Part shown: piece by piece, positions 1 to 54,700 of the stretch | How positions within the stretch are numbered: the first letter of the stretch is position 1 | How the letters are laid out: every line of letters starts with the position of its first letter | Assembly: GCF_000003815.2 (NCBI RefSeq) | Contig: NC_049991.1 | Coordinates: forward strand, 13,245,133 to 13,309,132 | DNA from: Branchiostoma floridae | Lineage: Eukaryota; Chordata; Leptocardii; Amphioxiformes; Branchiostomatidae | Length of the DNA stretch: 64,000 bases | Direction of reading: 5' to 3' | The notes under the pieces: generated by a model | What the model was told of the DNA's origin: nothing | Database searches by the model: none | What the model saw: the letters and a program-made list of their open reading frames with translations, nothing else | Made by a program: the position numbers and the translations under genes

Positions 1-1003
1 ACCCCCTACAACAGAACCTCCCACCAGTGTACCCCCTACTACCGAACCTCCCACAACCGAACCCCCTACTACAGAACCTCCCACCACTGTACCCCCTACT
101 ACAGAACCTCCCACCACTGTACCCCCTACCACAGAACCTCCCCCAACTGAACCCCCTACTACAGAACCTCCTACCACTGTGCCCCCTACTACACAACCTC
201 CCACCACTTTACCCCCTACAACAGAACCTCCCACCACTGTACCCCCTACTACAGAACCTCCCACCACTGTACCCCCTACTACAGAACCTCCCCCGACCGA
301 ACCCCCTACTACAGAACCTCCTACCACTGTACCCCCTACTACAGAACTTCCCACAACCGAACACCCTACTACCGAACCTCCTACCACTGTACCCCCTACT
401 ACAGAACATCCCACCACTGTACCCCCTACAACAGAACCTCCCACCACTGTACCCCCTACAACAGAACCTCCCACCACTGTACCCCCTACAACAGAACCTC
501 CCACATTCGAACCCCCTACAACAGAACCTCCCACAACCGAACCCCCTACTACAGAACCTCCCACCACTTTACCCCCTTCTACAGAAACCCCCACCACTGT
601 ACCCCCTTCTACAGAAACCCCCACAACCGAACCCCCTACAACAGAACCTCCCACCACTTTACCCCCTACTACAGAACCTCCCACAACCAAACCTCCTACT
701 ACGATACCTCCCACAACCGAACCCCCTACTACAGAACCTCCCACGACCGAACCCCCTACTACAGAATCTCCCACCACTATACCGTCTACTACAGAACCTC
801 CCACCACTGAACCCCCTTCTACAGAAATCCCCACCACTGAACCCCCTACTACAGAACCTCCCACAACCGAACCCCCTACTACAGAACCTCCCACAACCGA
901 ACCTCCTACAACAGAACCTCTTACTACTTCACCTCCCACTACAGAGCGTGTGACAACGAATCCTCCCACAACAGCACCCCTCACTACCGAACCCGCCACT
1001 ACA
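1..1003 (+). repeat. 30-nt coding tandem repeat, PPTTEPPTT(V/E/L) units
   Basis: About 33 units of a 30-nt repeat encode the decapeptide [10 protein letters not shown] with substitutions at the last position. The correct frame is the one rich in Pro-Thr-Thr. The two other open frames (Tyr-Pro-Leu-rich on plus, Gly-Arg-rich on minus) are by-products of the repeat. Units diverge towards the 3' end, the usual pattern at the edge of a tandem array. Confidence 0.9.
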
Positions 1004-4000
1004 TAAGCACCCACAACAGAACTGCCAAGTACTGTACACCCTACCTCGAGGGCTGTTACCACAATCCCATCTACCACAAACCCTGTAACCACAGAATCAC
1101 CTACCACTGAACCTTCCACCACATACCCTCCTACCACAGAGCCTCCTATCGCAACTACGGTCGCAACAACTGAAGCGTCGGCAACTGCCATGACGACAAC
1201 ACAAGCCCCTACCACAGAGTCAGCTACTACACAGCCTGCAACAACTGTACCCCCTTCTACTGCTCCTTCTACTACTGTGAGTCCTACTACTGAAGCTCCT
1301 ACTACAGCCAGCCCAACTACTGAAGCTCCTACTACAGCCAGCCCAACTACTGAGGCTCCTACTACTGAAGCTCCTACTACTGAAGCCCCTACTACGGCCA
1401 GTCCAACTACTGAAGCTCCTACTACTGAAGCCCCTACTACTGCCAGCCCAACTACTAAAGCTCCTACTACGGACAGTCCAACTACTGAAGCTCCTACTAC
1501 GGCCAGTCCAACTACTGAAGCTCCCACTACGGACAGTCCAACTACTGAAGCTCCCACTACGGCCAGTCCAACTACTGAAGCTCCTACTACGGACAGTCCA
1601 ACTACTGAAGCTCCTACTACTGCCAGTCCAACTACTGAAGCTCCTACTACTGCCAGTCCAACTACTGAAGCTCCTACTACGGACAGTCCAACTACTGAAG
1701 CTCCAACTACGGAAAGTCCAACTACTGAAGCTCCAACTACTGGCGCTCCAACTACGGAAGCTCCTACTACTGCCAGTCCAACTACTGAAGCTCCTACTAC
1801 GGGCAGTCCAACTACTGGAAGTTCCAAATACGGACAAGCCAACTACTGAAGCTCCNNNNNNNNNNNNNNNNNNNNNNNNNNNNNNNNNNNNNNNNNNNNN
1901 NNNNNNNNNNNNNNNNNNNNNNNNNNNNNNNNNNNNNNNNNNNNNNNNNNNNNNNNNNNNNNNNNNNNNNNNNNNNNNNNNNNNNNNNNNNNNNNNNNNN
2001 NNNNNNNNNNNNNNNNNNNNNNNNNNNNNNNNNNNNNNNNNNNNNNNNNNNNNNNNNNNNNNNNNNNNNNNNNNNNNNNNNNNNNNNNNNNNNNNNNNNN
2101 NNNNNNNNNNNNNNNNNNNNNNNNNNNNNNNNNNNNNNNNNNNNNNNNNNNNNNNNNNNNNNNNNNNNNNNNNNNNNNNNNNNNNNNNNNNNNNNNNNNN
2201 NNNNNNNNNNNNNNNNNNNNNNNNNNNNNNNNNNNNNNNNNNNNNNNNNNNNNNNNNNNNNNNNNNNNNNNNNNNNNNNNNNNNNNNNNNNNNNNNNNNN
2301 NNNNNNNNNNNNNNNNNNNNNNNNNNNNNNNNNNNNNNNNNNNNNNNNNNNNNNNNNNNNNNNNNNNNNNNNNNNNNNNNNNNNNNNNNNNNNNNNNNNN
2401 NNNNNNNNNNNNNNNNNNNNNNNNNNNNNNNNNNNNNNNNNNNNNNNNNNNNNNNNNNNNNNNNNNNNNNNNNNNNNNNNNNNNNNNNNNNNNNNNNNNN
2501 NNNNNNNNAAGCTCCTACTACGGCCAGTCCAACTACTGAAGCTCCTACTACGGCCAGCTCCAACTACTGAAGCTCCTACTACTGAAGCCATTTCAACTAC
2601 TGAAGCTCCTACTACGNNNNNNNNNNNNNNNNNNNNNNNNNNNNNNNNNNNNNNNNNNNNNNNNNNNNNNNNNNNNNNNNNNNNNNNNNNNNNNNNNNNN
2701 NNNNNNNNNNNNNNNNNNNNNNNNNNNNNNNNNNNNNNNNNNNNNNNNNNNNNNNNNNNNNNNNNNNNNNNNNNNNNNNNNNNNNNNNNNNNNNNNNNNN
2801 NNNNNNNNNNNNNNNNNNNTACTACGGGCCAGTCCAACTACTGAAGCTCCTACTACAGCCAGTCCAACTACTGAAGCTCCTACTACGGCCAGCCCAACTA
2901 CTGAAGCTCCTACTACTGACGCTCCTACTACTGAAGCTCCCACTACGGCCAGTCCAACTACTGAAGCTCCTACTACGGCCAGCCCAACTACTGAAGCTCC
3001 GACTACGGCCAGTCCAACTACTGAAGCTCCTACTACGGCAGGTCCGACTACTGAAGCTCCTACTACAGCCATTTCTACTACTCAAGCTCTTACTACAGCC
3101 AGTGTAACTACGGAAGCTCCTACCACAGCACCTGTCACTACCAAACCAGTGACAAGCGTACCACCTTCCACTTCTGCTCAAACTACTGACTCTCCCACCA
3201 CAGTCATGTCAACTACTGAGGCTCCCACCACAGAATCTCAAACTACCAAACATGTAACAACCGCGGTTCCAACAACGGAATCACCTACGACAAGCAGTTC
3301 AACTACCCAGGCTGTTACCACAGATTCAGCTACAACTCAGCCTACAACGACTGCACCGCATTCCACGGCAGGAGCAACAACAGAGTCTCCCACTACAGCC
3401 GTCCCAACTACAGAGGCACCTACCACGGAATCTCCAACTACCGAAACAGCAACAACTGCCCGTCCAACAACGGAGTCCCATACTACAGCTAGTCTGACAA
3501 CTGAGCCTCCCACCACGGAATCACCAACAACCAAATCTCCCACCACAGCCATTCCAACTACCCAGGCCCTTACCACGGAGCATCCAACGACCAGAGCCGC
3601 TACAACGGAATCACCAACGACGGCCGCTGCAACTACTGATGCTCCTACCACTGAGTCCCTAACCACGAAACCAGCAACGACCGCACCCTCTTCCACTGCA
3701 GCTCCAACTACTGTGTTGTCCACCACAGCAAGTCCAACAACTGAAGCTCCCACGACGGAGACCCCAACCTCAAAACCTGCGACGACTGTGCCGCCTTCCA
3801 CTGCAGTTAAGACAACCGAACCCTCTACTACAGCCAGCCCAACTACTACAGAAACAACAGTCAGAACAACTGAGCGATCTACCACGACCACCAAGCCAGC
3901 AACAACTGCTGTTTCAACTACGGAATCACTTACTACTCAGGCACCTACTACAGAGTCTCCAACTACAAAAGCTGCAACAACTCTACCGCATTCAACTACA

Positions 4001-5538
4001 ACGGACTCAGTCAGTCCGACTACCCAGGCCCGCACCACAACCACGAAGCCTGTATCAACTGTACAAACTACCGAATCTCCAACAACGGTACGTCCTACTA
4101 CCCAGGCTGCTACCACAGCAACATCCTCAACCGCAGCTCACACCACCCCATCGCAGACTACAGCCCGGACTACTTTGACGTCACAACAGTCCACCATTAG
4201 ATCGACTGCTCAACATACAACAAATGCAGCAACGAGTACCGAGCAAGACAACTCAACTACAACAGGTATTGTTCATTAGGTCTACACCAATGGGTGATTT
4301 CTATATTTTCTATTGCTAGGCCATGATATTATCTGCAGAATAGATTGCCAGTAAGTATTCTATGCCAGATAGTTTCTTTTGAATGTAAAGACGGGTATTT
4401 GGTCCCGAAATCGTCACACTTTCAAAAGAGAGCAAAAGACTTTTGTTGTATAAAATTACGTTTACACTAATACCCATTAAAATCTCTGTTGTAACAGCAG
4501 TGCCTACTACATTGACGACGTTAGCGTCAACAACAAGAAGAGGAGGAGTGCCTGCATTTGGTAATTCACTTTTTCGTCAATAATGGTTTTAGTCAAGGTA
4601 CATTACATCCCATGCTTAGTAATGTTACATGTATTTGATGTTACATTTGGATATATGCTAACACAAGAAAAGCAGATGTAGATCATTAAGGAACGTTATT
4701 TTTCTAAAGAAATGCGGTGCAAAGAAAGTTGTTACAGTAAGGCTTTATAAGCATGACCATGATCTGAAAAAATGAACCTTACTTGTAGGCTTGTTGTATA
4801 GTTAAGATTAAACCAGTACACTACCATTTTCCACAGCATCTTCAACTAACATTTACTCGGATAAGTGATATGATACGACATCTCAAAAACACTAACAAGC
4901 TCTCATACTTTGTTATAGTCTCCGACCTGGTGAAGTCCAAAATCAGGATCACGAACAAAGTCTTCCAGTCGGAGTTTGCAGACAAAACCTCCGAGGAGTA
5001 CCTGAACATAACCGGGTCTATAAAGACAGTGGTACGTGTATCTTTATTTTGTTGTACAAGTTTAACTGCGGGGTATTAGACACTTTGAGATTGCTATGTA
5101 CATAAGCAGGAAGTGTTGAAATAAAGGCGTTTGTGGGCATTCTATTCCACATGTATGTAAACTCGAAAATGATAATAATGTGACCGGTGTGACAGCGATC
5201 TCGCCCCCCCCGCGATCTCGCCCCCCCCGGGGGGCGAGATCGCTAGCGTTTTCGCCCCCCTCTGGCGTTTTCGCCCCCCCCCCCCCCCCCCCTGGGGTTT
5301 GGCCCCCCCTCCCTAGGGATATCCTTCCCGTTTNNNNNNNNNNNNNNNNNNNNNNNNNNNNNNNNNNNNNNNNNNNNNNNNNNNNNNNNNNNNNNNNNNN
5401 NNNNNNNNNNNNNNNNNNNNNNNNNNNNNNNNNGCTCTTAATCCTATTGCTGTGATAATGATTAGCACCTGTCTTGTTACCTACTTTTGTATATATATAT
5501 ATATATATATATATAACTTTTGTATATATAAATAAATA

Positions 5539-5615
<77 letters not shown>

Positions 5616-8567
5616 TTTTGTATATATATACCTACTTTTTTACATAGCCTTAAGATACTTAACTTGCAGCTTGTTACTTCATATAAATCGAGCTACCTGG
5701 AACAATATGGTACTTGGATGTCACGTATATAGTGTGTTACCTGGTATCTATATATACGTGACACCTTAGTATGTTAAGATGAGATACAGTACCTGTGAAG
5801 CCGATCCTACCTGGGTGGGTGCAAGCACACTTTGCATTGAAATAAAACAGATACATTTTTGTTGTGAATTTGTGGTGACTTTTATTAACATCACGAACGT
5901 ATATTAACACATGCATATCAACACACCTGTTGCTGAGAGACACAAAATGCACGCGCTCTTGAGAGATGTATCTTTTCCACAAATACACACAGAATTCGAA
6001 ACGCTACCCAAAATATAAAGTGAAACTTCTTGGCGAACGCAACAATAGGAACAATGCACTCGTAGATTCGAGCAAAACTGCACAGTGCAGTGTGGTGATT
6101 AGGCTCTCACACATGAAGTAGAGATATTGCACGTCGCGTAGGGGGTTAACACTCTCCTCTTTGAGCACAAATTGAGGATATTTGCATCATTCTCGGAGCG
6201 AGCCTAGTATAAAATGTGTGTCTCCATTATCTATGAGATTATGTGTAAACCTTATATAATACTTNNNNNNNNNNNNNNNNNNNNNNNNNNNNNNNNNNNN
6301 NNNNNNNNNNNNNNNNNNNNNNNNNNNNNNNNNNNNNNNNNNNNNNNNNNNNNNNNNNNNNNNNTCTTGTAAATGATGCGGAATAGAACGTATTGTATAC
6401 AGAATATTTTGCACAATGGTTCTGTACCTGTGTTTGTTGGTTAGTCTGTCGACCAAAATAGCATAATGGATCCTATACTTATATCACGTCAATGGACGTA
6501 ATTGTTGGCTGACGAAATGATTTCATTCTCAAATATATTTCATAACTAATTATTTTTCATAGATGACAACATGTGCTAATTACAGATACATTTATGTAAT
6601 CTGCTTGTGTCACTGAAACAGAACTTCCCTTTTTTCTTTTTACCTTCACATACCATGATATAAGGGATAAGTGGCATGGGCTTTACGAAATGACATGCAA
6701 AAATGCAAATTAGCACATAATTCGCATGATTCAGGAGACGAATATGTAATTCTATTGTTTCCATGTTGTGACTTTAATACACGTAATCTATGTAATGTAA
6801 AGGTTATGGAAGGTGAAACATATCAGATAATGATTATGAAAATGAGATGCTGATTTGCATAATTAATGTCAAAGTACAAAAATTCTAAAGTGCAATGTGC
6901 AAATTAATTGTGCACCACTATGTATAGACTGTGCAAATGCGCAAGTCATTTTCTTAATTCAGGACAAAATGTCATCATAAAATGCAGCTAAACGAAAGTA
7001 TCTGCACACGTGTTAACTCTAACGTGTCAATTACAGCTTCATTTGCATAATGAATGAGACTAGATGACACTATAAATCTGCAAGAGCTAAAAATATTTAA
7101 TGGAGGTATGATGTGATTTGTACGAAGCAAAAGTAATGTAACTTATAGGTTTATTGGAGATGCAAATCACTAGAAGGATGCAAATCACTGGAAATCCCTA
7201 GCGATTTCGCCCCAAGAGGGTAAGGGGAGGCCAAATCATTAGCGATTTCGCCCCGGGAGGGGGGGGGGCGATCTCACTAGCGATTTCGCCCCGGAAAGGG
7301 GGGGGGGGCGAAATCACTAGCGATTTCGCCCCGGGGGGGGGGCGATATCACTAGCGATTTCGCCCCGGGGGGGGCGATATCACTAGCGATTTCGCCCCGG
7401 GAGGGGGGGCGAAATCACCAAAGGGGGGCGAAATGGGGGGGGGCGAAATCCCTAGTGATCCTGCCCCGGGGGGGGCGAAAACACTAGTGATTTTGCCCCC
7501 GGGGGGGGCGATATCACGGGGGGGCGAGAACGCTGTCACACCGGCACGACTGCAATATATCTGCATGTATTTTTAAATTTATGATAGAGAGAAATCACAC
7601 TAAAACTATCTTATCCACAGTGATCCTTCAGTGAAGCATACGGGCTATTGCAACTATATATCAATAGTTTGTATTTTGAAGAAATGTCTTATTTTCCCAT
7701 TGTAGTTGACCGATTTTCATCAGAGAGCTTTGGGCTCCAATTTCCAAAGTGTGGAGATCCTTGGACTCCTCAATGGCAGCCTGCTCGTCGACTACGTCGT
7801 GCACGTCATACTGGACAGCGGGGTGACTCCGCAGGAGGTGAAGGAGACCCTTACTGACGAGCTGCAGGCAGTCAGCTACACCAGTGGGGGCTTTGACTTT
7901 GATAGTTCAATCATTGTTTCAGGTTAGAAACATTTATAACTTTATTCATAGCTAACGGTGTCATAACGTCCAGTACAGTGGCGTTTGTGGAACTGTTGAA
8001 ATAGGTTGGTTAAACTTGAGTACAGTGCCACATTGCCCCGTCTGTCCAAAAAATAACGTTGCACTGGCTTGGAGTAGTGTCGACATGGCTTCTCTCCTTA
8101 TTGATACTTAAGTTCTCTCTTCGCTCTATCCTTCGTATTGTCGCCTACGGATGATAAATCGAAATAACAAAAATGTGAAAAGAAGGTTTCATTTGTTACC
8201 ATTTTCATCTCCCTCAGTTTTTTTACTATTGACATCTGATTTGGTCTCAACATTCGTAAAATTCTATTCACCAATACACGAGAGTTCCAGTAGCGGACTC
8301 TTAAGATAGTATCTGTACAGATTCGTACGTTCTGTTAGGTTTGCCCTGAGATTTTTGAAACAACACAGGTCTCCTAATCTAGGGCATTATTTCCCTCCAC
8401 CCCACCCGCTCCCCTCTCTACAGACCTTGATGAGTGCGCGTCATCTGATCGGAACGACTGCGGGGAACTGTCCACGTGCACCAACACGGACGGGTCGTAC
8501 TTCTGCTCCTGTCAGGAAGGGTATCGCTTCGTCTTCCAAGCTGGGAAGAAGGATGGGAATGTGTGTG
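1..8567 (+). CDS. Secreted or membrane mucin with PTS repeats, SEA and EGF domains (3' part, incomplete)
   Basis: Exons are 1-4264 (broken by two gaps), 4498-4560, 4919-5031, 7706-7922 and 8424-8567, and all junctions agree in phase (1, 1, 0, 1). The first exon encodes well over 1000 residues of Thr/Pro/Ser/Ala repeats, the substrate for dense O-glycosylation. Exons 3 and 4 together encode a SEA domain, starting [10 protein letters not shown] and containing GSLLV at 7775-7789, which resembles the GSVVV autoproteolysis site of MUC1-type SEA domains. Exon 5 is a phase-1 module encoding a calcium-binding EGF domain (DLDEC, six cysteines, [12 protein letters not shown]). The gene starts upstream of the window. 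No transmembrane exon can be seen after the EGF exon. An in-frame TAA at 1004-1006 interrupts the repeat frame. Function as a gel-forming or cell-surface glycoprotein is inferred from architecture; the family assignment (mucin-like) is secure, the orthologue is not. Confidence 0.85.
1856..2508. other. Assembly gap (653 N) inside mucin repeats
   Basis: Run of N within the [10 protein letters not shown] array; the size may be an estimate. Frame is lost just before it (TGA at 1847-1849). Confidence 0.99.
2617..2819. other. Assembly gap (203 N) inside mucin repeats
   Basis: Second run of N in the same array. The 108 bases between the two gaps and the first bases after this gap show frame-breaking single-base differences from the repeat consensus. 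Confidence 0.99.
5334..5433. other. Assembly gap (100 N)
   Basis: Placeholder-sized gap directly after a homopolymeric C tract, where sequencing probably failed. Confidence 0.99.
5491..5614. repeat. (TA)n microsatellite
   Basis: Nearly pure TA dinucleotide tract with a few interruptions, inside the foldback element. Confidence 0.95.
6265..6364. other. Assembly gap (100 N)
   Basis: Placeholder-sized gap in AT-rich intron sequence of the mucin gene. Confidence 0.99.
8424..8567 (+). other. Calcium-binding EGF-like domain exon
   Basis: A single symmetrical phase 1-1 exon encodes D-L-D-E-C followed by five more cysteines (NDC, STC, YFC, SC, NVC). It contains the Asn/Asp hydroxylation consensus C-x-N-x4-Y-x-C. 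This is the classic shuffled cbEGF exon and follows the SEA domain as in several membrane mucins. Acceptor is at 8422-8423, donor at 8568-8569. Confidence 0.88.
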
Positions 8568-9868
8568 GTGAGTGCAGGTCTTTTGTTGTTTGTAATTCCA
8601 TTCTCAGGTTATGCGGTATGCCTTGTTTCCATCGGAAGACAAGCTGCTTCACGCTTCCACGATTGGTAGAAAGAGCCTGATAAGCGCAAGGGACATACGA
8701 AAAGACGGCGGAGCAAGCGAAGGATATTTCGTCTGTGACATTGCATGATACGTTGATGTCGCATAATGAACATCGTCTTTTGTTTATCGCATGCATTTAC
8801 ATACATTTTATGAGTGAGTGAGTGAGTGAGTGAGAGTGAATGAGTGAGTGAGTGAGTGAGTGAGTGAGTGAGTGAGTGAGTGAGTGAGTGAGTGAGTGAG
8901 TGAGTGAGTGACTGAGTGAGTGACTGAGTGAGTGAAATTGCAAAGAGTCATAGCACTGTATCTCAATACTTTTAAAGCAATTCAAATGGTACGGACATTT
9001 CAAGGCCATTTTATGGATGGATACCTCACTCGAACACGCTACTAGGGATAGGGCTTTGTTCTACTTCTAGAGTATCAATGATAAGATAGATGTTCTCTGG
9101 TGAAAACACGTGTAACCATTAAGATTTGACAGTAATGGGTTTGATTCACAAAGTTCTGACATCCGCAAGACAAAGACGCCTTTGTCAAAACCAATTATCA
9201 AGCTATATTAAAAGTACATTCGCGATGCGCAATCGCGAAGCAACGGAAACAATAAAGTCTGATCCTAACGCCACACCCGGTCCCATTGGAGTTGGGTAGA
9301 GCCACGGTTCATCTTGTTTCTCATATTGATTCTGACATTCCTCTTCAGCCTGGAGATGTCCTTGCGTCAGGACGACAAGACAAAAAGAATACTACAAAAA
9401 AGAATGCTACATGGCATTTCAATCAATACATCACTCCATTGTCTGGCCTATAGACAGGGTCTTTATTCAGTTTGACATCTTCCGGCTGTAAATCGATTTT
9501 TAATTAAGTGCTTAAGCACGCCAGACTAGGAAAAATAGTATCCAAAACAGCGGGCGTGTCCTGGATACGGCCGTGTATTTGAAAATGGATATGGTCGTCA
9601 GGGACAACATGTTAACAAGCAGACGTCATTGCGTTACTCCCTCCATTGTTAACAAACGGCCATTCAAACGCCCCGCACCTGACTGAGGTCGAGCACAATA
9701 GTCTCTGCTGCGTACAGGTTACGACATCGCTGCTTCTTACATTTGGGAGCGACCACGTTGGAAATATTTCTGTCGTTCTCAAAAGCGTTCCAACCCCTGA
9801 CCAAGATACAAGCTTGACATTTTGCGACTACAAGACATTTCTAGATCTAGCCCAGGCAACGCAGGGCG
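8568..9868. other. Interval without a confident exon between mucin EGF exon and paralogue 1
   Basis: I searched this interval on the plus strand for a phase-1 exon encoding a transmembrane segment to finish the mucin gene and found none. Acceptor-like sites at 8622-8623, 9348-9349 and 9718-9719 lead only to short frames without a hydrophobic stretch. The proximal part contains the GTGA microsatellite. The last ~250 bases are probably promoter and 5' UTR of the next gene. Confidence 0.5.
8813..8932. repeat. (GTGA)n tetranucleotide microsatellite
   Basis: About 30 copies of GAGT/GTGA with few interruptions, between the EGF exon and the next gene. The reverse-complement tract (TCAC)n occurs at about 43066-43200. 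Confidence 0.95.
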
Positions 9869-19004: not shown

Positions 19005-20111
19005 TGTCACAGTGGAGATCACGATCCAGGAGAATCGCCGATCCTCCTAGGAGAGATCACGATCGGAGTTTCTCCTAGGAGAATCGCCGATTCTACTAGT
19101 ATAGATTGCGATCGGGATTTCTCCTAGGAGAAACTACAATAGATATAGGAAACAGATCCCGTGTCACTTCTACAATGTTAACTTCACCGAAGACTACCAC
19201 ACTTGAGTCACTTCTGCAACTTTACTCAATGCACACTTTTACTCAATGCTACCTCACTATTGTCACTTCTACAACTATACTCAAGATACCATACTGGTCT
19301 TCTTCTTCTTTCGTGTCATCACTACTGGTGTCACTACAACTATACTAAGGCAACCACACTATCATATAGTATATAGCATCATTTCAACATTACCACATTT
19401 GTGTCTTTCCCAGAACTATACTCAAGGATACAAGGAACTGGCTGGAGGGAGAAATTTGTCCTTATATGTCTTGGGGGCATGCAAACTCTGTTTGACACCT
19501 GTTTGATCACTTTACAATGGTTATTGGTCTTCAAAAGTTGTGAACTGATGCCATACACGTCTGACTAGTGAATGTACTCAATAGGTGTGAAATTGTGAGT
19601 AATATCTTGAAACTCTGCTTGATTTTTTGACACCTGTTTGACAACTTTACAGTTGTTATTGTTCTTCCAAAGCCGTGAAATTTGCATACTGACACATTGT
19701 TTGATCACCTGTTGGTGTCTTTCACATATTATAAGATTTTTGCCACTACTTTAAAAGAAATTACTTTATCAGAAATTACAGAAAACATACTCACATGAAA
19801 TTTACCATGAAAGTGATGCTATATACTATAGTGTACCTTGAGTAAAGTTGCAGAAGTGACTCAAGTGTGATAGTCTTTGGTGAAGTTAACATTGTAGAAG
19901 TGACACAAGTAGGCTTGAGTGTAGTTGGTAATGAGTTAGTAGGTTTGCATTAATACCGAATAAAATCATTGTTTATCAAAAAAATTATTGCTGTTTCATA
20001 CATCCTAGCATCGTTTGAGTTTGGATCGGAGTTTCTCCTAGGAGAAACTCCGATCGCGATCTCTCCTAGGAGGATCGGCAATTCTCCTGGATCGTGATCT
20101 CCACTGTGACA
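19005..20111. mobile_element. Long foldback element (~1.1 kb) between paralogues 2 and 3
   Basis: The left end TGTCACAGTGGAGATCACGA is the reverse complement of the right end at 20092-20111. Complementarity runs further inward: the CCTAGG-centred palindromes TCTCCTAGGAGA recur in both arms (near 19050, 19070, 19120 and 20035, 20065), and 19145-19260 pairs with 19830-19915 (TGTTAACTTCACC, GAGTCACTTCTGCAACTTTA). Flanks share TATA on both sides, suggesting a TA-type target. There is no transposase frame, so it would be non-autonomous. Confidence 0.8.
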
Positions 20112-21057: not shown

Positions 21058-24022
21058 CAAAAGAGTCGAGCAAGGACAGGACGCACAGCGCCCGATTGAA
21101 CATTGTGGGCGCGGCCATATCTAAGGTACGTTCACTGGCACAATTAAGTCAAGAAAAACTGCAAAATGTTTCATACGTGGTCAAAAGCTTGTATGGTTGA
21201 AAGCCATCACCCTTACAAGGTTTTCATTCTAACTCATTTGCAGAGAATGGTATATATTAAAGTGGACACCTTCTTGTTGAGTGTAATCGTTAGATATCTT
21301 GTTATAGCACTGTATATTATGTGAACGATGTGAGTAACAGTGATTGCGATGGCTTTGCACTATCCAAAAACATTATTTGTGTGCTGCAAAGGAATATTAC
21401 AAGACATGGAGACATGGTATGAAGTTACCCGATCTTTTCCACCTCTAGATTGGTCCAAAGAAATCCAGAATCAAGGAACTCATAAGGGATTCGGCCAACG
21501 AGTTTTGCAAGAATAGCGAAAACGCGGAGAGCTGCTGTAAGGGTATCAGCTATGTCAGGTACTAGGACTTCATTTTCAACTGTACAGAAAACATGTTGTA
21601 GGCATACATTTTACATGCATTTACACTTTAAACTGAAACCATTTACGTTCATATCTAAATACATTATACACTTAAACCTTACACCATTTGCGCAGATATA
21701 ACATATCTAATATCAATATAATATCTAATATCTTTGATATCTAATATCTAATACCAGCCAAACGATAGATAACAATAAATACGATTATCAATATGATTGA
21801 TTGCATCATGTTTGAACTTCCAGTCTGGCCTCTGGCAATCTGATCCCGATAACCAGTGCCGCTGCTGAGGAGTATGTGTTCTTGTTGCGAGTGGATGGGG
21901 ACGAGAGCAACACTACCGACAACAACGTTGGGTAAGTTCCATACTGGCAATCCTCTTCACGCACATAGATGGGTGCGGTGAGGGTGGTAGGTCAACGCGT
22001 TAAGTCAGTTAACGGTCATATCTACTCTTTGAATGAGGGTTTTTTTCGTGCCGCCTTTCAACAAAACACAGAAACTGTATACTATCTAGACTTTGATGTT
22101 TACGTATACAGCTAGATCGATGTCCAAACGTCCGCACCGCGTACCTTGGAAGCTGGTACTTTTCGCCGAATGGCCGTTATACATGATACAGGATATATAT
22201 AGAGAGATACAGATACTATCGATGATACTATTAGCCTGGTTACCAAACCCCAGCCCGATCTCAAGTATCTATCGTGCAGAGGTCTGGCAGGATGACATAG
22301 GAACTCTTCTCAATTTTGCCCCTTCTAGTGGGCAAAAAACTCCACCAATAGAACAGTAGCAGGATCAGCAGGAGGCAATTACACCCTACCATGATTGGTT
22401 AAAGACCCCGAACTGTATTTTTTGAATCCATAACAGTGACCACTAAGTACCTGATTCGCTACTGTGATAGCCTGCTGATCAACTGAGGTGTGTTGTAGCT
22501 GGCTACCTGTGGTGTGAGTGGTCATCAATCCTAGGTTCTCCTCCCTCTGATCAAGGGCCTTCGAGAACCTTTCTACAGCCATCCTGCCAGACCCCAACAC
22601 GAAAGATATCTGAGGTTGGGGTATGGTATCCAGGCTATGATACTATTCGTCATGACAAACAAAATGATGTAATTTTGTACCGTCTACAGAATCCAGGTCG
22701 TCTTGGCTGTTCCCAAAGGTGGAGAAAACGGAGTTTGTGTTCAGGACAGCAGTCGTAGGAAGAGAGACGTGGAGGACAACTCCCTTCACCGGGAAAAACG
22801 TGCGGTCACCACGCCTTCGCCCACAGTGGCGCCGGACCTGGTCTTCCTCGACCCGTCACTCGTGAAGACGGTACTGGACACACCTGGTTTCAGGACAAGT
22901 ATGAATGTAAGCAACATTAAGTGGTAATGTTGCCGTATGATAACAAAGAACCTTTAGTTTGCTTTGAAATAAAGAATCGGTCTAACAAAGGTGGAACAGT
23001 ATAAAGACTGATTTCCAAGACTGACCATAAGAGAACGTGAAACAAAGAACTAAATAGCTTCACAATCGCAAAACTCACAGAAGGTTTTCTGCATTCGCTT
23101 ACGTTATCTCATATGGCAGTGATATAACGAGATGATCGCTACTATGCCAACAGAATAGCGGCTATTCGAAGCAGGACACAGTTGACAAGGCTGGACTCCA
23201 GGCTAGCCGTGGTTGAGTATTTACGTATTTGGAGAGTCAGATGGGCCCTATACCTACCAATGGCCTCAGCAATCCTTTAGTCTAACGACAGGTACATTTC
23301 TGTACTCATGTTGACTTTTTTATGACTTACCACCCTTCAGAATGATCTTGGACTGTTGGTTGGACTTGTGGCAGTCCTGGAGGAAAGCGAGTGTGAGGTT
23401 GGTGGTGACCTCCAGCCCTGGGTCATCGGCCTCATCACCATCACAGCCTTCCTCACCCTCCTGCTCATCATCGCCGCTATCGTCATGTGTGTCAACGGGT
23501 GAGTACACACAACACAGGTTATCTCTTTCTCTGTAGTGTCTCTGTCTGAGGAAAGACCGTGGTCTCGTCCTTGGAGTACAGACTATAGAAGGGTAGGTGA
23601 AAGCTAACGAAGATATAGGACTAAAGACACCACTTTCGTTTCAGCAAAATTATCATATATACGTCCCTAATATACAACGAGTTCAGCAAACGTTCTGCTC
23701 TCAGACTATATGTATAGCTTCCATATTCAGAGAATAACATGATGGTGCACTGTGCTGACTTAAGATTTGACCAGCGATGGCTGTTTGAAAACACGATTTC
23801 AAGTGTCAATTCCTGTCCCAATGTGCAAGTTGTCATCCTTAGCCAGACGTCGGCTTGGTAACACGGTATTTGTGACTTGAATAAATTGAGAGCACACGCA
23901 CCGCCATGGTATGGAGGAACACACCCATGACTTGTTTTCTTTCATGCCATAACAGAAAGAAGAACAAAGACTACAGCAGACAGTGGGCCTCCAAGACAAG
24001 AGTTACACCAGTTGCGCAGTAG
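21058..24022 (+). CDS. Paralogue 3: type I membrane protein with tandem furin-type sites (leader exon not found)
   Basis: Exons 21058-21125, 21449-21558, 21824-21931, 22690-22906, 23341-23498 and 23956-24022 keep phases 0-2-2-0-2. Exon 2 is again 110 nt, exon 3 is 108 nt as in paralogue 2, and the membrane exon is 158 nt as in paralogue 1. The first recognised exon opens in phase 1 (CA|AAA|GAG, encoding KESSKDRTHS), so a leader exon should lie upstream; I cannot identify one. Ectodomain features are EFC, ESCCKG, AAEEYVFLLRVDGD, GVC, then RRKR and REKR basic motifs, a Thr/Pro linker, FLDPSLVKTVLDTPGFR and a stalk cysteine. The transmembrane helix starts after LQPW, and the tail ends KTRVTPVAQ. 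About 241 residues are recovered. Function unknown. Confidence 0.82.
22232..22637. mobile_element. ~406 bp MITE with 9 bp target duplication, copy 1 (intron 3 of paralogue 3)
   Basis: Termini TAGCCTGG and CCAGGCTA with extended imperfect inverted repeats. The 9 bp direct repeat TGATACTAT lies at 22223-22231 and 22638-22646. A second copy in opposite orientation is at 46465-46862. The 9 bp duplication is typical of Mutator-like elements. No coding capacity. Confidence 0.88.
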
Positions 24023-36100: not shown

Positions 36101-38576
36101 CCTGTTTTTTCTTCTTCTTAAATTCCATTGTGTAATTCACAGCTTTTATTTGTTCCAGAAAAACGTCTACCACTTCTACCATTTTCCAAATGAACATTGT
36201 TTTAATTACATTGTGGTTTTATGAGGTAGTAAACATTCATATATTTCATATTGATTCCATGGGGAAAACCAAAGTCATGCATATTTTATGCTAATACCCA
36301 TTGGCAATCAATTATTCGTTTATCACATTTATTTTTATTGCTGGGTACTGATTTCAAATGAAGTGAGGATGTTTTCCCTGATTTGAAGGATGACACAACA
36401 GCTGTGATTCTAAGTATTTCTGTCATATGTTTACCATATAATGGAATGTTACCTGATCTAGACTATAGGACAAGTTGTACAATGACAGGCACTTAAATTA
36501 TATCCCTGGTAAAATAATACATGTAGGAAGTACAAGTGCTCTCAGACAGAACAATTATGACAATAAGTTGTAGTTTAACATCACTGTTCTCTGTCTGTGA
36601 GCATGTGTACTTCCTATTATTTTTACAAGAAATAATTATTTATCACTCGACTACACACAGAACTTTTTTCCCATTTGATTCCAAGGTCCTTGACATGTAG
36701 TCTGGAAAGTGTTATGCTACAGCACCCTTTCTGTAATTTCCAATCTTGGGAAAACAATCTTAATGGCAAATTCATCATCATTCCTGAAAAACAAACTCCA
36801 CTCCAGGGAGACATTTGCTGTGATGCCAAACATTATAATTCATTCTCCATATGTACCTTATCATACTGTTAATGTTACATGCTTTCTTTTGTCGTTATGT
36901 TAAACAATTACACTGTGCAATACAACGATGGAGACTTACCAAAACAGGCTATACAAGAGGAATAAGCACAGTAATGTTGTTGCTACAAGTCTGTTCAAGG
37001 AGGCTCTATCTTTTAATAGAACCTCGTCGATCAGATTTAAATATAGAAAATAGTTGTGTAATGCAGTACCGGTAATTCTGAGTGTCATAACAAATATATG
37101 GAATGACGTCTAAGTTAGACCAGTTTAGGCACCAGGGACAAGATGAAGTCAGTTTGTTTACTCTTCATCTAAAATTTCCTTTGACAATCATATCCAATTT
37201 CAAATATTCCTGATACGATTTGTAAAAGTAATGACTACTTCAGTGCAGGGGTGAACAATGACCTGATATAAATATACATATGTTTAAAATGTCTGTTTGT
37301 TACTGATGATTTTTAAAGCTACATTGGCACATTGATGTTTAAGTGTGTGACCAATATCAAATATAATAAAGTTTCATATCACAGACATTGTATGGCATAT
37401 ACAACTGTAAGCAAAGAACTTATCTTCAACATGGATATCATTTGTGCAATTTTACACTGAGTAATCCGTTATGTTGTTATTTCTGCCAGACACTTAGGTC
37501 TTTAAGCTGTCATATACAGACTAGAAATGTTCAACTCAACAATACTGCCTTTAAATTATTTTCTTGAATTTTTGTTGCACTTTTAATGCAAGAAAATGAA
37601 AATAAAATCTTAATGTGTAATTCCAACATTATGTGAAGGTTTTCACTAATATACTCTTATTATGATTCTCCTTTGTAATTGCAGCCTTTTTAAAGCAGAG
37701 CCATACCCATTTATATCCATATATTCTCAACACTTTGCATGGAACATTTTATACTGCTCTCGTGGGAAATCACAGGTTCCCCTCTGGAATTTCAACGGAA
37801 GCATTTGTGGTTACAGTGCAATCTGCTGCGAATTTGCCAGCCACGCCACTTGTTTTGTTGAAACTGTTGGAATTATGTCTGTCAAGGTAAGTATGCACAG
37901 GGGACGGTGACTGTTAACTGTTAAGTGGATCAAAAAAAGCTTTTATGGATCAGAACATGTTCCTATATGATTTAGTATCTAGTATACGCCAAATCCGAAG
38001 TCATAGCATCATAAATCTGTTGAGATATTTATGATAGATGGAAATAGATCCGTATCTGTATCTGTATAGTCAGTATTGTTGGATGTTCATCGGTCTCTGA
38101 TACCTAAACTACATGCCCTATGGCACAACACACAAGCTTTTGTACCTGTATAGCCAGTATAACCGCCTTTTGGTGTAAGCAAGGATGTTAAAAAGGTTCT
38201 GGGGAAAAACGATTTTCAGAAACCTTAATTCTGAGTTGATAATTCAAAATGTAGGTCAAATGAAATCCAGTACATATACATCAGTGACATAAATCACCCC
38301 CTCAAGTTATATAATAGTATCTCCAAGAAACCTTTGACCCCAAACAAAATGAGAAAGTAGGAATTATTACGAAAATGTTAAAATGTTCCATGCAAGCGAC
38401 TGGCAGCAATTCATTGCATACACCACTTTAACCTACCTGAAGACAACGCTATTTTGACTGGCAATAGGGATGACAAGTCTGTTGTAGGCAGAAATAGAAG
38501 AAATTCCGCTGATTTTACAAAATTTCTGCAACCTCGCCCTCCCACAAGCCGATAAAACACGACATGCCAAAGACAT
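27191..38576 (-). CDS. SPATA20: SPATA20: thioredoxin-like (DUF255) plus (alpha/alpha)6-barrel protein, complete, 797 aa
   Basis: Fourteen exons, in gene order: 38437-38576, 35641-35784, 35317-35381, 34905-35059, 34439-34582, 33842-34040, 33445-33575, 32801-32980, 31966-32175, 31327-31519, 30560-30731, 29846-30054, 28330-28529, 27191-27442. They sum to 2394 nt with no internal stop. Exon 1 gives [19 protein letters not shown], Arg-rich with no acids, a probable mitochondrial leader; the junction [18 protein letters not shown] is in frame. Then comes the family signature [20 protein letters not shown], the thioredoxin-like redox motif CHWC (C122, C125) and [14 protein letters not shown]. Further signatures are [95 protein letters not shown] and the end [12 protein letters not shown]. 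Length matches vertebrate SPATA20 (about 790-800). The exact substrate of the family is not settled. Confidence 0.96.
27700..28290. repeat. Tandem hairpin array (~140 bp period, about four units) in last SPATA20 intron
   Basis: Units repeat at 27714, 27850, 27996, 28130 and 28271. Each contains an inverted repeat formed by CCAAATGATGG...TTCAGCACC, a short AAGGAGA loop and GGTGCTGAA...CCATCATTTGG. CAAAGTACCTTTACTGG segments follow. Confidence 0.85.
29117..29754 (-). pseudogene. Four tandem fragments of SPATA20 exon 12 (3' half plus donor)
   Basis: Relative to the true exon 12 (29846-30054), fragments recur every ~182 bp at 29117-29210, 29300-29389, 29477-29570 and 29662-29754. Each begins after a CTGCAG acceptor-like site and encodes versions of [19 protein letters not shown]. 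Fragments 1 and 3 keep an open frame and a donor (GAAG|GTTAG). Fragment 2 has lost the donor, and fragment 4 has a one-base deletion at GCTTCCC. The correct exon is the one continuous with the 5' half. Confidence 0.85.
30148..30325 (-). pseudogene. Duplicated 5' half of SPATA20 exon 12 with upstream intron
   Basis: 30148-30221 repeats the coding text of 29985-30054 ([21 protein letters not shown]) with its acceptor (CTCTGTTAG in plus orientation). The flanking intron (ATCCTTTGCATAGTGAGA) is repeated as well. After LYKKA the frame runs into intron-like sequence without a donor, so it is probably not used as an exon. Confidence 0.8.
33081..33403. repeat. Short repeat family with a hairpin copy in SPATA20 intron 7
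   Basis: The text TTTTACCTAG.TGATGTTT.GGTGAACATC occurs at about 33086, 33165 and 33250. An inverted copy ends at 33403 (ACTAGGTAAATACTTTGG). The segment 33244-33403 is therefore a MITE-like hairpin with CCAAAG/CTTTGG ends; the upstream copies look like solo arms. Confidence 0.65.
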
Positions 38577-45700: not shown

Positions 45701-48700
45701 TATGGGCCTATAAATAACACCAACGTTGTCAAGGAAATGACCTCCTCCATGTGACCACTCAATATATAATACTAATGTTGTAATGCATATCTGTAACCTA
45801 TGGGACCAGTGTGCTTGTCACTAACACAAAGACCATGTCTTTGCACATATATCTAGATAATCAGAGGCTATAGATTAGAACTTGCTATCTTTTTTACTTC
45901 CTCATCTTTGATTTATTTGCAAAGAAAATGAAATGTAATCTATAGAAAGAAATGGCCTTTGCTATGAAGAGATATAGCATGGATATAGAATTTTCTAGAG
46001 TTACGTAATGAAGATATCATATTGGATGATAGCAGTATTATATGGCATGTTGAGTATGTGTTCCTGTGGTTTTCCTTTGTAAAGAGTGTAGACAGTGAAA
46101 ATAAGACATCCTGTGAGGGATAAGAAATATAGATGTAGACATGAAAGAAAAGGGAGCAAGATTTGCCATTGTCATGAGAGAATTGAGAAGAAAACTTTAG
46201 AATCCAATCTTCAAAAACTCTGGATGGAATTGAAACTGTTCTTTTCTTTGTATAACAAGCTTCTCTCGAAAAAGCACAAATTAATTCAAGGTGTAGACCT
46301 GGAAGACTGGAATAAACCACATTATACTCCATTTAGAATGCAGGGTCTGTAGTCTTGGCCTCTGGGTTCACATACATACAGGGTGCTATGGGACAGACAT
46401 GCAGAATTTGTTACTTGTGTAATGTGAACAGGGATTTGGCTGTTATAGGAAACAGTAGTTTTGTTAGCCTGGATTCCATACCCCAACCTCAAGATATATC
46501 TTTCGTGTTGGGGTCTGGCAACATGGCTGTAGAAAGGTTCTCGAAGGCCCGTTGATCAGTGGGAGGAGAACCTAGGATTGATGACCACTCTCACCACAGG
46601 TAGCCAGCTACAACACACCACAGTTGGTCAGCAGGCTATCACAGTAGCGAATCAGCTACATTATGGATTCAAAAAGTACAGTTGGGGGTCTTTAACCAAT
46701 CATGGCAGGGGTGTAATTACCTCCTGCTGATCCTGTGTTGTTCTATTGGTGGTGTTTTTTGCCCACTATAAGGTGCAAAATTGAGAAGAGTTCCTATTCC
46801 ATCCGGCCAGACCCCTGCACGATAGATACTTGAGATCGGGCTGGGGTTTGGTAACCAGGCTATAGTTTTGTAGGAAAGCATACTGATTCACTGGCTGACT
46901 CATTCCTGGAATAGATATTCTCTCCCTATCAACAGTATCGTAAAATGTGATAAAGTCTGAAAGGATTTTATAACTATAAAGTTATCGGAGACTTTCTTTC
47001 TGTGAATTGAAGTGATATTTCTGCCCGTTTTGCTGGAGTGATGACCAAAATATGATTAGAAAGTTTTCAAAGGATACAATCATGTAGTTTTTATCTGCAT
47101 AGTTTTACCTACTTAATTTTCTGTTAAGAAGTATATATAGATGTACATGTGGGGTATTAATTGATAATGAGTGAAAATAGAAACCTGTATTCACAAGTGT
47201 CAATGTAGCTGTATGAATAATGATCCCCCATGCAGTGTGGCTAACAACCCATGATGCTCCCACACCTGTCTGTAATGCATATTTTTGCATGCATGTTGGT
47301 AATAACATATCCATATACAAACCTTTTACTGTATGTCACAGTCAGATTTCAAGGATAAAGAATTTGTCTTCAAGAATAAAGATGACGAGAAACTCCATAA
47401 CCACCCCTTGGTACATAAACAAGTTCTACCCCTCATGGAGACATTGATAAATGTAATATTTTGGCTCAAAACCACATGCCGGAAAAGCCTTTCAGAGAAG
47501 ATTAGGATATAGATATGTATTTTGGAACCAGAGGGCCACCATGTATTATTGTGTTGGGTGTCTCCAGTGATCACATCAGTCACTGATTCAAGTGTCTACA
47601 AGTGTGCCACCAGACAGTCAGCAGACAGATGGATCATTGGAAACAGAAGGCTCAGAAGCTCCTGGCATTCTGTAGGGAAGAGGTAGAACTGAAATAGGAA
47701 GCTGTGCCAGACCACATAGGAAAAGATGTTTCCTGTATGAACTGCACTTTGACAAAGCTAATTTGGAATGTTATATTTTTTTCTCAGAAAGTAACAGGCG
47801 TTGTTGAATATGGTACGAGAATTGTAGCAGAAGGGAATTTATTGCACTAGTGGAGGCAGGGATGAGAAAATTAGCATTTTGAAATGAGACACTTGGTCAT
47901 TGGGGTATTCCTCTTGTAAATTACTTGATTTGTCAGGCTGTCATACTCATAGTATTGTTAGGATACAGGCACTACATCATGCAAATGATGCTGATAAAAT
48001 TATGAAAACTTGGAAAATAATATTTTCTTCTCTGTGGTAGGCCAGGCAGTTGTTTTAGTGGGAGAGTGAGTGAATAATTCCTTTTTTTAGTACCATATGT
48101 CATCATCATTACTTTGCGTAATAGCTTGACCACATGACCACATGTGAATCAGAGCAAGGAGGTTTTAACCTCCTTGATCAGAGCATATTAGATCTACTGC
48201 ACTGTCATTCAAAAGCAATATTGATATCCAGGTCTTGCAGGAGTAATTTGTGTGGTATCTGCCACAGGTAATGCCTGGGTGATGTCAGAAAGCCAGGCTG
48301 TCTAAACCTGACCCATGGTTCACCTGACAGAAATGGGACACTGTGGGGCTAGGTCACAGCCAGCAAGCCATTTGTCAAAACTGCTCTGGTTCAGAGAAGC
48401 TTGATGTGTCTGTCCTACAATATGCAAGGTGTAATACTCTCAGTTGCTGTGAAAATGCTTTTATTTTGTAGATTAGCTTTTTAGTTTAGAATAACTTATG
48501 ATACGTGATCTACCAGAATGGCAAGGGATTTATTTTAGTGATTATACATTTTCCTGATTTGTGTACCCATATGGCCAAATGTGCAGCTAGATTGACTTTG
48601 TTAATTGGAATGAAAGCCTCCAATTCTGTTTAATACAGTTTTAAAGGTTTAGATTTGCAGTGTTTTTTAGCACACTCCATATAAGGTTCATTCCAGTATG

Positions 48701-51700: not shown

Positions 51701-54700
51701 ATATGATGAGAGAACGTGTATACTGGTAAAACCGTCCATGGTCGAGTGGCACTTGACTTGTATGCAAACATACAAAGATGCAGAAGCAAAATGCCAGGCA
51801 ACCACAATATCCAGGTTCTAGTTCCTTAAGTGAGATTGTTGTTGTTTCTTTGAAAATGAAAGGTGCTAAACTTAAAGCATGGTTGTTATGATCTGATGTT
51901 GCTGAATTCCTGAGGCAAGCGACCTGCTAAATGGATGTAAACAACTGTCTGGTTTTACTGTGTGGGTCTATTTTGGTCCTGTTATCTTCATGTTACTCTA
52001 CTGTCTGTACTGACTGTAACTTCAAAATCTTTTACAGAGATCTTTTACAGAAATTGTGCAAATGCATTTTTTCGAGTTTGAGGTTAGAGGCCATGAAAAA
52101 GTATTAAATGTAAAACAAGTAATAAGTAACATTTTGAATTAGTTTCAGTCCATTCACAAAGGAATTTTTCTAGGAGGGCAGAGGGCTGAGAATGTTAACT
52201 AGCCAGCCCTAATGATCATAAAAAAATTATTGTAGTATTTACATGCATGTATCTTGTTGACATTGATAACACCAAGAAGGTCGAACCTCCTTGATAACAC
52301 GTTGTAACTCACTTCAATCACGATTTTCCCAGTCTATTTACTGTCATTCTGCTACTTGTGCAAATCAGTTTTTTTCTCCATCTTCTCATACATTGTATAT
52401 GCCATTTACATCCCTACTTCTACATTTAAGCCAAAAAGCAGTTACTCAAGCAACTGGATATCACACACAACTAGATATGATTTTGGAAAATCATATCCAG
52501 TTGCTTGAGTTACTGCTTTTTGGCTAATACTTCTACCTTTGTTTTATTTAGATTTCCATTAATGTTACAGCATTTTGCCATCCTTCCTACTAGAGTCAAC
52601 ATAAATTAAGTGCAAAGAAATGAAATTTAAAACTTATATAACAATACAGAAATTGAACATAATCAAATGTGGTGAACATAAAAGTGAGTGGAGGTCACAG
52701 GTCAAAATAACAAGTATGAGCTGGGTATTGTTAGCCAGAAAACCTTTGATTCACCATAACCTCTTCACCAACCACAGAAGAATGTTCAATATTACATTGG
52801 ACATAATCAATAGTGGCTGTCACCCATAGCTTTGGTAATCACATTATCAAGACCTTGTTCTGTGCAATATCTTTTCTTCATCTGCGGCTACATTCCCCAA
52901 GGGACCCGTAACAGCCAGCAGGAATATTGTGCTAATGCCAAGAACGGATGTCCAATATCTACAGTTGTATTCAACAGCGGCTGGCCTTTTTTTGTATGCA
53001 AGGGTGGGAGACAAACCAAATGTCAGCACAACACTCGACCCTTTCTCTATTTCAGTTTGCTTGATGTTTGTCACAGAAGATTGGCCAGCTGTATATATGA
53101 GATAGAAAATGTCATGTAAGTATAAGTGTTTGTCTGGCTTTTACATGCAGTAAAGACAGTTCCCTGGGCCAACATAGCAGACAATTTTCCACTGGTAGTC
53201 AAGCAACAGGGTCAACAGGGCACCGCCTTCTGTCACCTACATGACATTCGCTGACCTCTAAAATATGGTGAAGCTTGATCAAAGTCCCCGAGAGTCATAT
53301 AACTGTGCATTTAGTAACATGTCTCTAGTAGTAAAGGGTGTTTGGCCTAGAGAAAGAATGGTATGAAGCATTGTCTGGAATTGTTCAAAGACATGACAGT
53401 CCCCTTGCCAGTATCACACCATTTTCTTGTGTTTAGACCTACATTTTTTTGTAAATTATTATTGTGAACACCAGTGTGGCAAAGAAGAGCTAAACAAATT
53501 ATACTTTTTTATAGTTCTGGACAAAGTTAATTAATGGTACCAACACAATGACATTGGAATTTTTGTGCCAGAACCATTGTCCACTTTTGTGAAGAAACTT
53601 TTATCCTTAGACAATATCGTTTATCGTTACATTTAATTTTCACTTAAAGACTGTTCTTTGAATTCCTTGTGAACTACAATGGATGATCCTTGCAGACTGC
53701 CAAGTCCATAAGCAGTAAAGATGCAGATTTTCACTCAGGCATCTGTGCCCTTCTGATAAAGTATGGTGCAAAGGTCTCGGGGGGTGCTTCCACAAATTGT
53801 CCCTGTGAAAGTGCAAGGCAAATTGTGATCTATGACTCTCCAATTCTCATCTGCAATTCTGGACCTCTGCCAAGATACATGGACATAGGTTGTAGCATGT
53901 TGGCTGGCCCTCTTTGAATGCCCTTTTATTTATGCCAACGACCTGGAATACACTGTGCTAAAAGATGCTATAAGAATGTTGAAAGTCACTGTATAAGTTA
54001 TAACACTAGACGTAGAAGTCACCTTGAACTTGAAATGTCTTTGCTGGTTGTATTAGCAGGGAAACTTCACTGATTTGATTTTGTTGCAAGTTGTCTGCAT
54101 TCATCATGGTATGTTCTTTATCTCTCTAACATGGTACTATGATTTTTTGTTGGCAAGGTTGGTAGTTTTTTTTAGCTTTGTTATATTCATTGTACGTAAT
54201 AAAGATTCTGTCATTTCAGACTTGGTAATCACTTATTGGCATGAGATGAGCTTTTCTTTAAGTGATGGAAAAACTGCATCTTTTGTGTCACCTTTGGTGA
54301 CAAGAAAAGGCGACAAGAATGAGAAATTAGACTCTAATAACTGGTTTTAAATTTTCTCATCCCTCCTTATAGAGTCCTATCGTCCGTCGGCAAATTAGAG
54401 CTAGTTAAGATGCACTGAGGCTATTACAGTGGGAGTGTCTGAGAAGAGGCTTAGAAAATAATTGAGGCTGCTTGATTTAATTGTATTGAAGAGCTTTAGA
54501 CCGGCCAGGTAATCAGCTATGATGGTAAATTGTGTCCAGGGACAATCACAGGTTTCCACCCCTGTAAAATATGTGAGTTAGCTGACGATGCTTTATATAT
54601 GGTAATGAATAGGTAGAGGTGACACTTGAAGGGATGATAACTGCTTATAATAATAGCCTTCAGACTAAGATGTTTTGGACCATCATAAAATATTTATGGG

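Follow-up and report, generated by a model that had tools for sequence, protein, structure and literature searches.

Two flanked near-palindromes in an amphioxus window

The window is the whole 64,000-nt stretch of DNA analysed here (C13:13245133-13309132). Its first part (1-4300) is a large, mucin-like array of Thr/Pro-rich repeats that includes assembly gaps, followed by an EGF-type frame at 8378-8680, a reading frame over position 32166 that we take to be SPATA20-like and whose neighbouring frame matches PF03190, and a frame at about 39.7 kb that presumably is the start of a Caskin-like gene and had no match in a domain search. Two short near-palindromes, copies A and B, each lie exactly between two 7-bp direct repeats, and copy A is provisionally placed, from the reading frames, in intron-like DNA after the frame at about 39.7 kb.

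Table 1. Coordinates of the putative excision scars in the window and of a further group of inserts elsewhere in the genome.
Feature	Position	Strand	Basis
Copy A, left 7-bp target-site duplication ATCAGAG	48148..48154	.	scan and genome-wide flank comparison
Copy A, putative 22-nt excision scar with TT between the left-end remnant CAAGGAGGTT and the right-end remnant AACCTCCTTG	48155..48176	.	sequence and family counts
Copy A, right 7-bp target-site duplication ATCAGAG	48177..48183	.	scan and genome-wide flank comparison
Copy B, left 7-bp target-site duplication ATAACAC	52266..52272	.	scan
Copy B, putative 21-nt excision scar CAAGAAGGTC-G-AACCTCCTTG	52273..52293	.	scan and flank comparison
Copy B, right 7-bp target-site duplication ATAACAC	52294..52300	.	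scan
Possible old third scar, 34 nt, arms CAAGGAGGCTCTAT / ATAGAACCTCGTCG, uncertain	36996..37029	.	tip match compared with shuffles
TAATCTCCAAG-type inserts	L033:5290-5516, L037:2475-2670, L039:1829-1997, L047:7887-8067, L049:2434-2610, L049:9423-9622		

An earlier, sequence-only reading had reported copy A at 48148-48183 with ATCAGAG flanks, which proved correct on re-reading, and a related palindrome with duplicated 7-nt flanks of its own, which is copy B (52266-52300, ATAACAC on both sides). It had also described the 22-mer as a perfect palindrome, but the 10-bp arms enclose a non-palindromic TT (CAAGGAGGTT-TT-AACCTCCTTG); the insert of copy B is 21 nt long, with arm mismatches at two positions. 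The longest direct repeat measures 9 nt at copy A (ATCAGAGCA) and 10 nt at copy B (TTGATAACAC) because adjacent bases happen to match, and the sole frame that fits both copies is a 7-bp repeat around an insert with CAAG...CTTG ends. Read on the opposite strand, copy A is CAAGGAGGTTAA followed by AACCTCCTTG, as expected if the stub of an element whose end continues AA had been joined to a 10-nt stub.

We scanned the window for exact 7-nt direct repeats flanking an inverted-repeat insert of 12-60 nt, with a low-complexity filter, and obtained seven hits, namely copies A and B and five in AT-rich, G-rich or repeat-array sequence; the same scan of 20 dinucleotide shuffles of the window gave no hit in 17 and one hit in 3. 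Arrays of G-rich and AT sequence and TCTCCTAGGAGA inverted-repeat arrays at 5212-7505 and 19026-20090 are mimics of flanked palindromes. The uncertain third scar has two 10-nt tips with three mismatches in total and a duplication that is not intact (4/7 positions match), and comparable matches occurred 0.15 times on average in 40 shuffles of the window minus its first 5.7 kb.

Further candidates in the window were rejected. An exact tip at 32166 is regarded as a coincidence, since it falls inside the SPATA20-like reading frame. The segment 52440-52514, taken at first sight for a third flanked palindrome with AGTTACT flanks, is the interior of a longer inverted repeat, and its flanks only look duplicated because AGTTACT is near-palindromic; this 97-bp near-perfect inverted repeat (52429-52525) has AGCCAAAAAGCAG... 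arms with partial duplications, and 28-29-nt pieces of it occur again in L018. Two TAGCCTGG elements from the 7-nt scan, about 400 bp long and in opposite orientation (~22223-22646 and ~46456-46871), have 9-bp target duplications by eye (TGATACTAT and TAGTTTTGT) and form a separate family, Mutator-like by duplication length.

The tips recur at about two thousand places or more

We searched the genome to which the window belongs, 513,431,437 bases in 431 contigs, in which all place counts are lower bounds. The tips CAAGGAGG and CCTCCTTG, with both 8-nt sequences exact and 0-30 nt between them, occur at at least 2,051 places compared to 5 for a reversed control, and the same tips spaced by 31-60 nt at at least 117 places compared to 7. 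Allowing up to three mismatches, the 22-mer of copy A has 358 matches on the plus and 340 on the minus strand, symmetrical copies being counted on both, and its reversed control has none. We put the number of probable excision scars in this genome at about two thousand or more.

The 29 loci listed for the 22-mer include copy A itself (L015), and three of them (L017, L025 and L027) represent a single insertion within a duplicated stretch. In one of the three copies of that stretch, an insert beside the palindrome is an unrelated TA-flanked element of about 485 bp (L027:1532-2018) with CAGTCAAACCTGCCC terminal repeats, about 10 nt from the scar.

The flanks are target-site duplications

The sequence-only reading had interpreted the flanks as target-site duplications of a transposon-type insertion and had proposed a genome-wide search for palindromes with 7-nt flanks. 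Run with up to three mismatches, this search bears the interpretation out, as the flanking repeat is perfect (7/7) in 19 of the 29 listed loci, 6/7 in 5 and 3-4/7 in 5. In a set of 66 candidates that were chosen by tips and arms, blind to the flanks, and that includes some chance hits as well as the 22-mer loci, each of the seven positions is identical between the two flanks in 53-60 of 66 cases, compared to 17 and 14 of 66 just outside, and 43 have perfect 7-bp flanks. The comparison also agrees at offsets -3 and +9 (41/66 and 43/66), which we attribute to the target motif, whose T and A are aligned there with T and A in the tips. A second flank-blind sample, made of the first 41 listed exact-tip places minus L001, which was already in the set, has perfect 7-bp repeats in 22 of 40 copies, 6/7 agreement in 11 and 5/7 or less in 7; among these last is L051, whose repeat is 8 bp long.

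The 59 perfect duplications comprise 58 distinct sequences and share a weak target consensus, with T at -2, GT...AC inside and A at position 10 (28 have G1, 31 have T2, 48 have A6 and 30 have C7; 34 have T at -2, and 42 have A at position 10). Whereas this consensus is palindromic, single sites are not so above shuffled columns (11 against 20.1 for positions 1/7 and 24 against 27.0 for positions 2/6).

One insertion can be compared with its empty site. L006 lies inside a repeat, and a copy of that repeat in L002 is shorter by exactly 29 nt (22 + 7), with a single GTGCACC at that spot. The empty sites with one copy of the 7-mer that had been predicted are therefore represented by one case, which is paralogous rather than allelic.

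Putative scars of one subfamily share their ends with full-length elements

An exact-duplication scan of 345 kb of locus sequence yielded nine further like-tipped inserts of 20, 26, 28, 28, 29, 35, 36, 42 and 44 nt, the last of which includes a 22-nt match from the 22-mer search. Across 89 inserts compared, those that differ have an end in common over up to about 20 nt, after which the sequence becomes that of the other arm; the common part is 22-23 nt in 7 of the 178 insert ends, where the other arm agrees too.

Two 20-nt ends allow these arms to be traced to longer elements. E1 (CAAGGAGGTTAAAGAAAGAG) has 103 exact places in the genome, of which 100 are listed, and E2 (CAAGGAGGTTAAAGAATCAC) has 88, all listed. 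Among the matches listed, facing 20-mers lie 39-46 nt apart in 25 pairs (22 E1/E2 and 3 E1/E1; 18 at exactly 39 nt) and 1,155-1,170 bp apart in another 25, with two pairs at 173 bp and one each at 314 and 1,233 bp. No further distances below 12 kb, and none of 47-172 bp, occur among these 100 of 103 E1 and 88 of 88 E2 matches, so that a size gap separates scars from elements.

We checked two of the complete elements, and both have perfect 7-bp duplications. One, of 314 bp (C13:9623956), carries E1 at both ends between copies of ATTTGAT; the other, of 1,165 bp (C3:16206500), carries E1 at one end and E2 at the other between copies of ATCAGGC, and its inverted repeats extend by AGGAGAG past the 20-mers. 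The three E1/E1 scars (40, 40 and 41 nt) likewise all have perfect 7-bp duplications. This tie between scars and full elements covers the E1/E2 subfamily and the one 314-bp element; copies A and B lie outside it, and the search of the window and of the loci of at least 3 kb found no complete element. A larger element suspected at L041:8301 had no convincing right end in the stretch examined. Recurring inserts of 155-213 bp with TAATCTCCAAG-type terminal repeats and flanking 7-nt matches (Table 1) are apparently a separate family.

For E1/E2, short pairs are about as many as complete copies with intact 20-mers (25 against 25 among the matches listed, with trimmed scars uncounted), and excision without restoration has therefore been common.

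Putative remnants of the E1 scars reach at most 23 nt, and joints vary

The E1 20-mer is complete, with a tip no more than 30 nt away, at 47 distinct places. Measured against the known ends, the remnants at these places reach 20-23 nt on the left and 8-23 nt on the right. Eighteen of these scars consist of E1(20) and E2(20) overlapping by 1 nt, so the 39-nt palindromes join both differing ends of the 1,165-bp element, 20 + 20 nt with one base in common; two others are 23 + 23. No end in the 47 scars reaches past 23 nt, although the pattern permitted a 30-nt gap, which sets the ceiling for the E1/E2 subfamily. In the wider tip search, the 0-30-nt gap restricts inserts to 16-46 nt by construction, so the edge in scar length is given by the drop of the count in the 31-60-nt band; a second tip lies inside a few of the 11 places listed from that band. 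A 54-nt case at C1:10092319 among them has maybe about 26 nt kept per end and cautions against taking 23 nt as a hard limit across all families.

End joining of chromosome breaks yields overlaps, trimming and copied filler. The joints of the scars are variable in the same terms, with microhomology, trimming or filler present across them. Three inserts have filler copied from their surroundings. In L042 it repeats the duplication and tip in inverted form; in L050, which has no 7-bp repeat, it reproduces 11 nt of the flank; and in L079 it is a copy of flank and tip.

Proposed origin of the scars

We propose that the palindromes are very probably excision footprints of a larger cut-and-paste transposon and not a miniature mobile element. 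A cut-and-paste DNA transposon would insert and create a 7-bp target duplication, and its transposase would later cut within the element, at about 20-23 nt from either tip. The broken chromosome ends would thereby retain up to about 20-23 nt of the terminal inverted repeat on each side, left and right. The two remnants would then be fused by end joining with trimming, 0-4 nt overlaps or templated filler, and the product would be a short near-palindrome made of duplication, left remnant, right remnant and duplication. The duplications, the empty paralogous site, the match of scar arms to element ends in one subfamily, the size gap that separates scars from elements and the 23-nt ceiling of that subfamily are direct observations; from them we infer the order of events, the staggered cut and the repair by end joining, and the remaining scars, including copies A and B, would share this origin. 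Against a footprint origin stand the absence of any locus seen in both full and scar state in the one assembly, and the poor flanks of some copies (5/7 or less in 7 of 40 flank-blind copies, 3-4/7 in 5 of the 29 listed loci).

As for the enzyme, we lean towards a transposase of the P superfamily. Repeat length, tip and, at the level of the consensus, target motif suggest it. The duplications are 7 bp, once 8 bp, as in the P superfamily with its 7 or 8 bp; and the tip CAAGG, which was the search key at the scars, is also present at both full elements read and fits the P terminal consensus CANRG. Profile searches for the transposase with PF12017 and PF21788 had no match, with control genomes silent too, and no transposase was recognized by eye in the reading frames of L037. 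The scars would arise in the manner of P excision, and we regard membership as probable rather than certain, since the repeat length, the consensus motif and the tip fit, yet a P-type transposase was not found and the remnants exceed 17 nt.

The same scars could have been left by an unknown or divergent transposase that does not belong to the P superfamily, duplicates 7 bp of target and cuts its ends at a depth of about 20-23 nt, which we consider rather unlikely. The unmatched P-type domain searches favour it, as do retained ends of up to 20-23 nt in place of the 17-nt stagger of Drosophila P, but a 7-bp (once 8-bp) duplication, a GT...AC target bias and a CA tip all fit P, and the domain-search negatives came with silent controls. 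That the enzyme stands outside any described superfamily, duplicating 7 bp, cutting at both ends about 20-23 nt from the tip and leaving scars in the thousands, is more doubtful still; if true, one genome would hold a natural library of break-repair junctions.

It is very improbable that the palindromes are internal deletion derivatives, in which the element stayed in place while replication slippage or an interrupted gap repair removed its middle, with no joining of cut ends. Two 173-bp derivatives with the same ends speak for it, but random deletions should end at many depths, whereas facing E1/E2 pairs are absent between 47 and 172 bp among the matches listed and the 47 E1 scars stop at 23 nt in spite of the permitted gap.

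Very improbable, too, is an ultra-short mobile element, that is, a 20-46-nt palindrome itself recognized and moved in trans by a transposase. It would explain why the copies are numerous, dispersed and flanked by perfect 7-bp duplications, and the identical 39-nt form at 18 places is readable as copies of one amplified mini-element. If the transposase is P-like, and only then, it counts against this reading that 22 nt is too small for internal transposase sites, which Drosophila P requires beyond its 31-bp repeats according to excerpts of PMC7776569. The sequence-only reading had taken the 22-nt unit for a mobile family of this kind, which the data do not support: lengths and centres vary, the arms of the best-resolved class unite two differing ends of elements of about 1,165 bp or match those of the 314-bp element, remnants can be asymmetric (20 + 8-10 nt), three inserts carry sequence copied from their flanks, and no end among the 47 E1 scars continues beyond 23 nt. 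Chance or hairpin-forming mutation at unrelated sites has a negligible probability, since template switching does produce short inverted repeats but for the family as a whole is already refuted by one tip at at least 2,051 places against 5 in the control, by the 7-bp duplications and by the empty site.

Annotation that starts from full-length elements would probably miss the scars described here, and they could be mistaken for tiny transposons, hairpin RNAs or regulatory palindromes. As each junction has two known ends and a known duplication, the set permits the cut site of a transposase to be measured from sequence only, and it also measures germ-line break repair in terms of overlap use, trimming and templated insertion.

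Relation to known systems

The scars stand out by their number and by how clearly they document cutting and repair; among the titles and abstract openings of the papers listed, we found no such scar family described. The closest parallel to the proposed footprints is the excision of Drosophila P, which, in excerpts of PMC7776569 and PMC10983969, cleaves with a 17-nt stagger inside each end. For transposons repaired by end joining, with P and Sleeping Beauty as cases, an excerpt of PMC3878927 describes the footprint as overhang sequence between target duplications. The amphioxus scars would resemble P excision, as far as these excerpts go, in the internal staggered cut that we propose and in a remnant between target duplications. 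Whereas Drosophila P has 8-bp duplications and 31-bp inverted repeats in the excerpts of PMC7776569, duplications here are 7 bp, with one 8-bp case, and the one element with both ends read has imperfect inverted repeats of about 27 nt; the retained ends measure up to 20-23 nt, and scar-like places number about two thousand.

Galileo, a Drosophila member of the P superfamily, makes 7-bp and sometimes 8-bp duplications with the consensus GTATTAC/GTANTAC and a palindromic target motif (excerpt of PMC4168063), which is like the duplications here and the GT...AC bias at 59 of them. Its terminal repeats are long and internally repetitive (abstract of PMC3573991), and it has a transposase segment, whereas the E1/E2-bounded elements span 173-1,233 bp and a transposase was not found.

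Zebrafish Pdre2 / THAP9 is a P-like element from an animal whose short inverted repeat starts with CA, as do the scars, but has 8-bp duplications and a different tip sequence (excerpt of PMC10983969). Its excision products carry deletions, and the section of PMC10983969 that describes them does not mention a dispersed scar family.

MITEs are like the scars in being short and in having inverted repeats and target duplications, and the 314-bp element is of the MITE kind. Unlike MITEs, the palindromes of 16-46 nt look like joined end remnants rather than mobile deletion derivatives.
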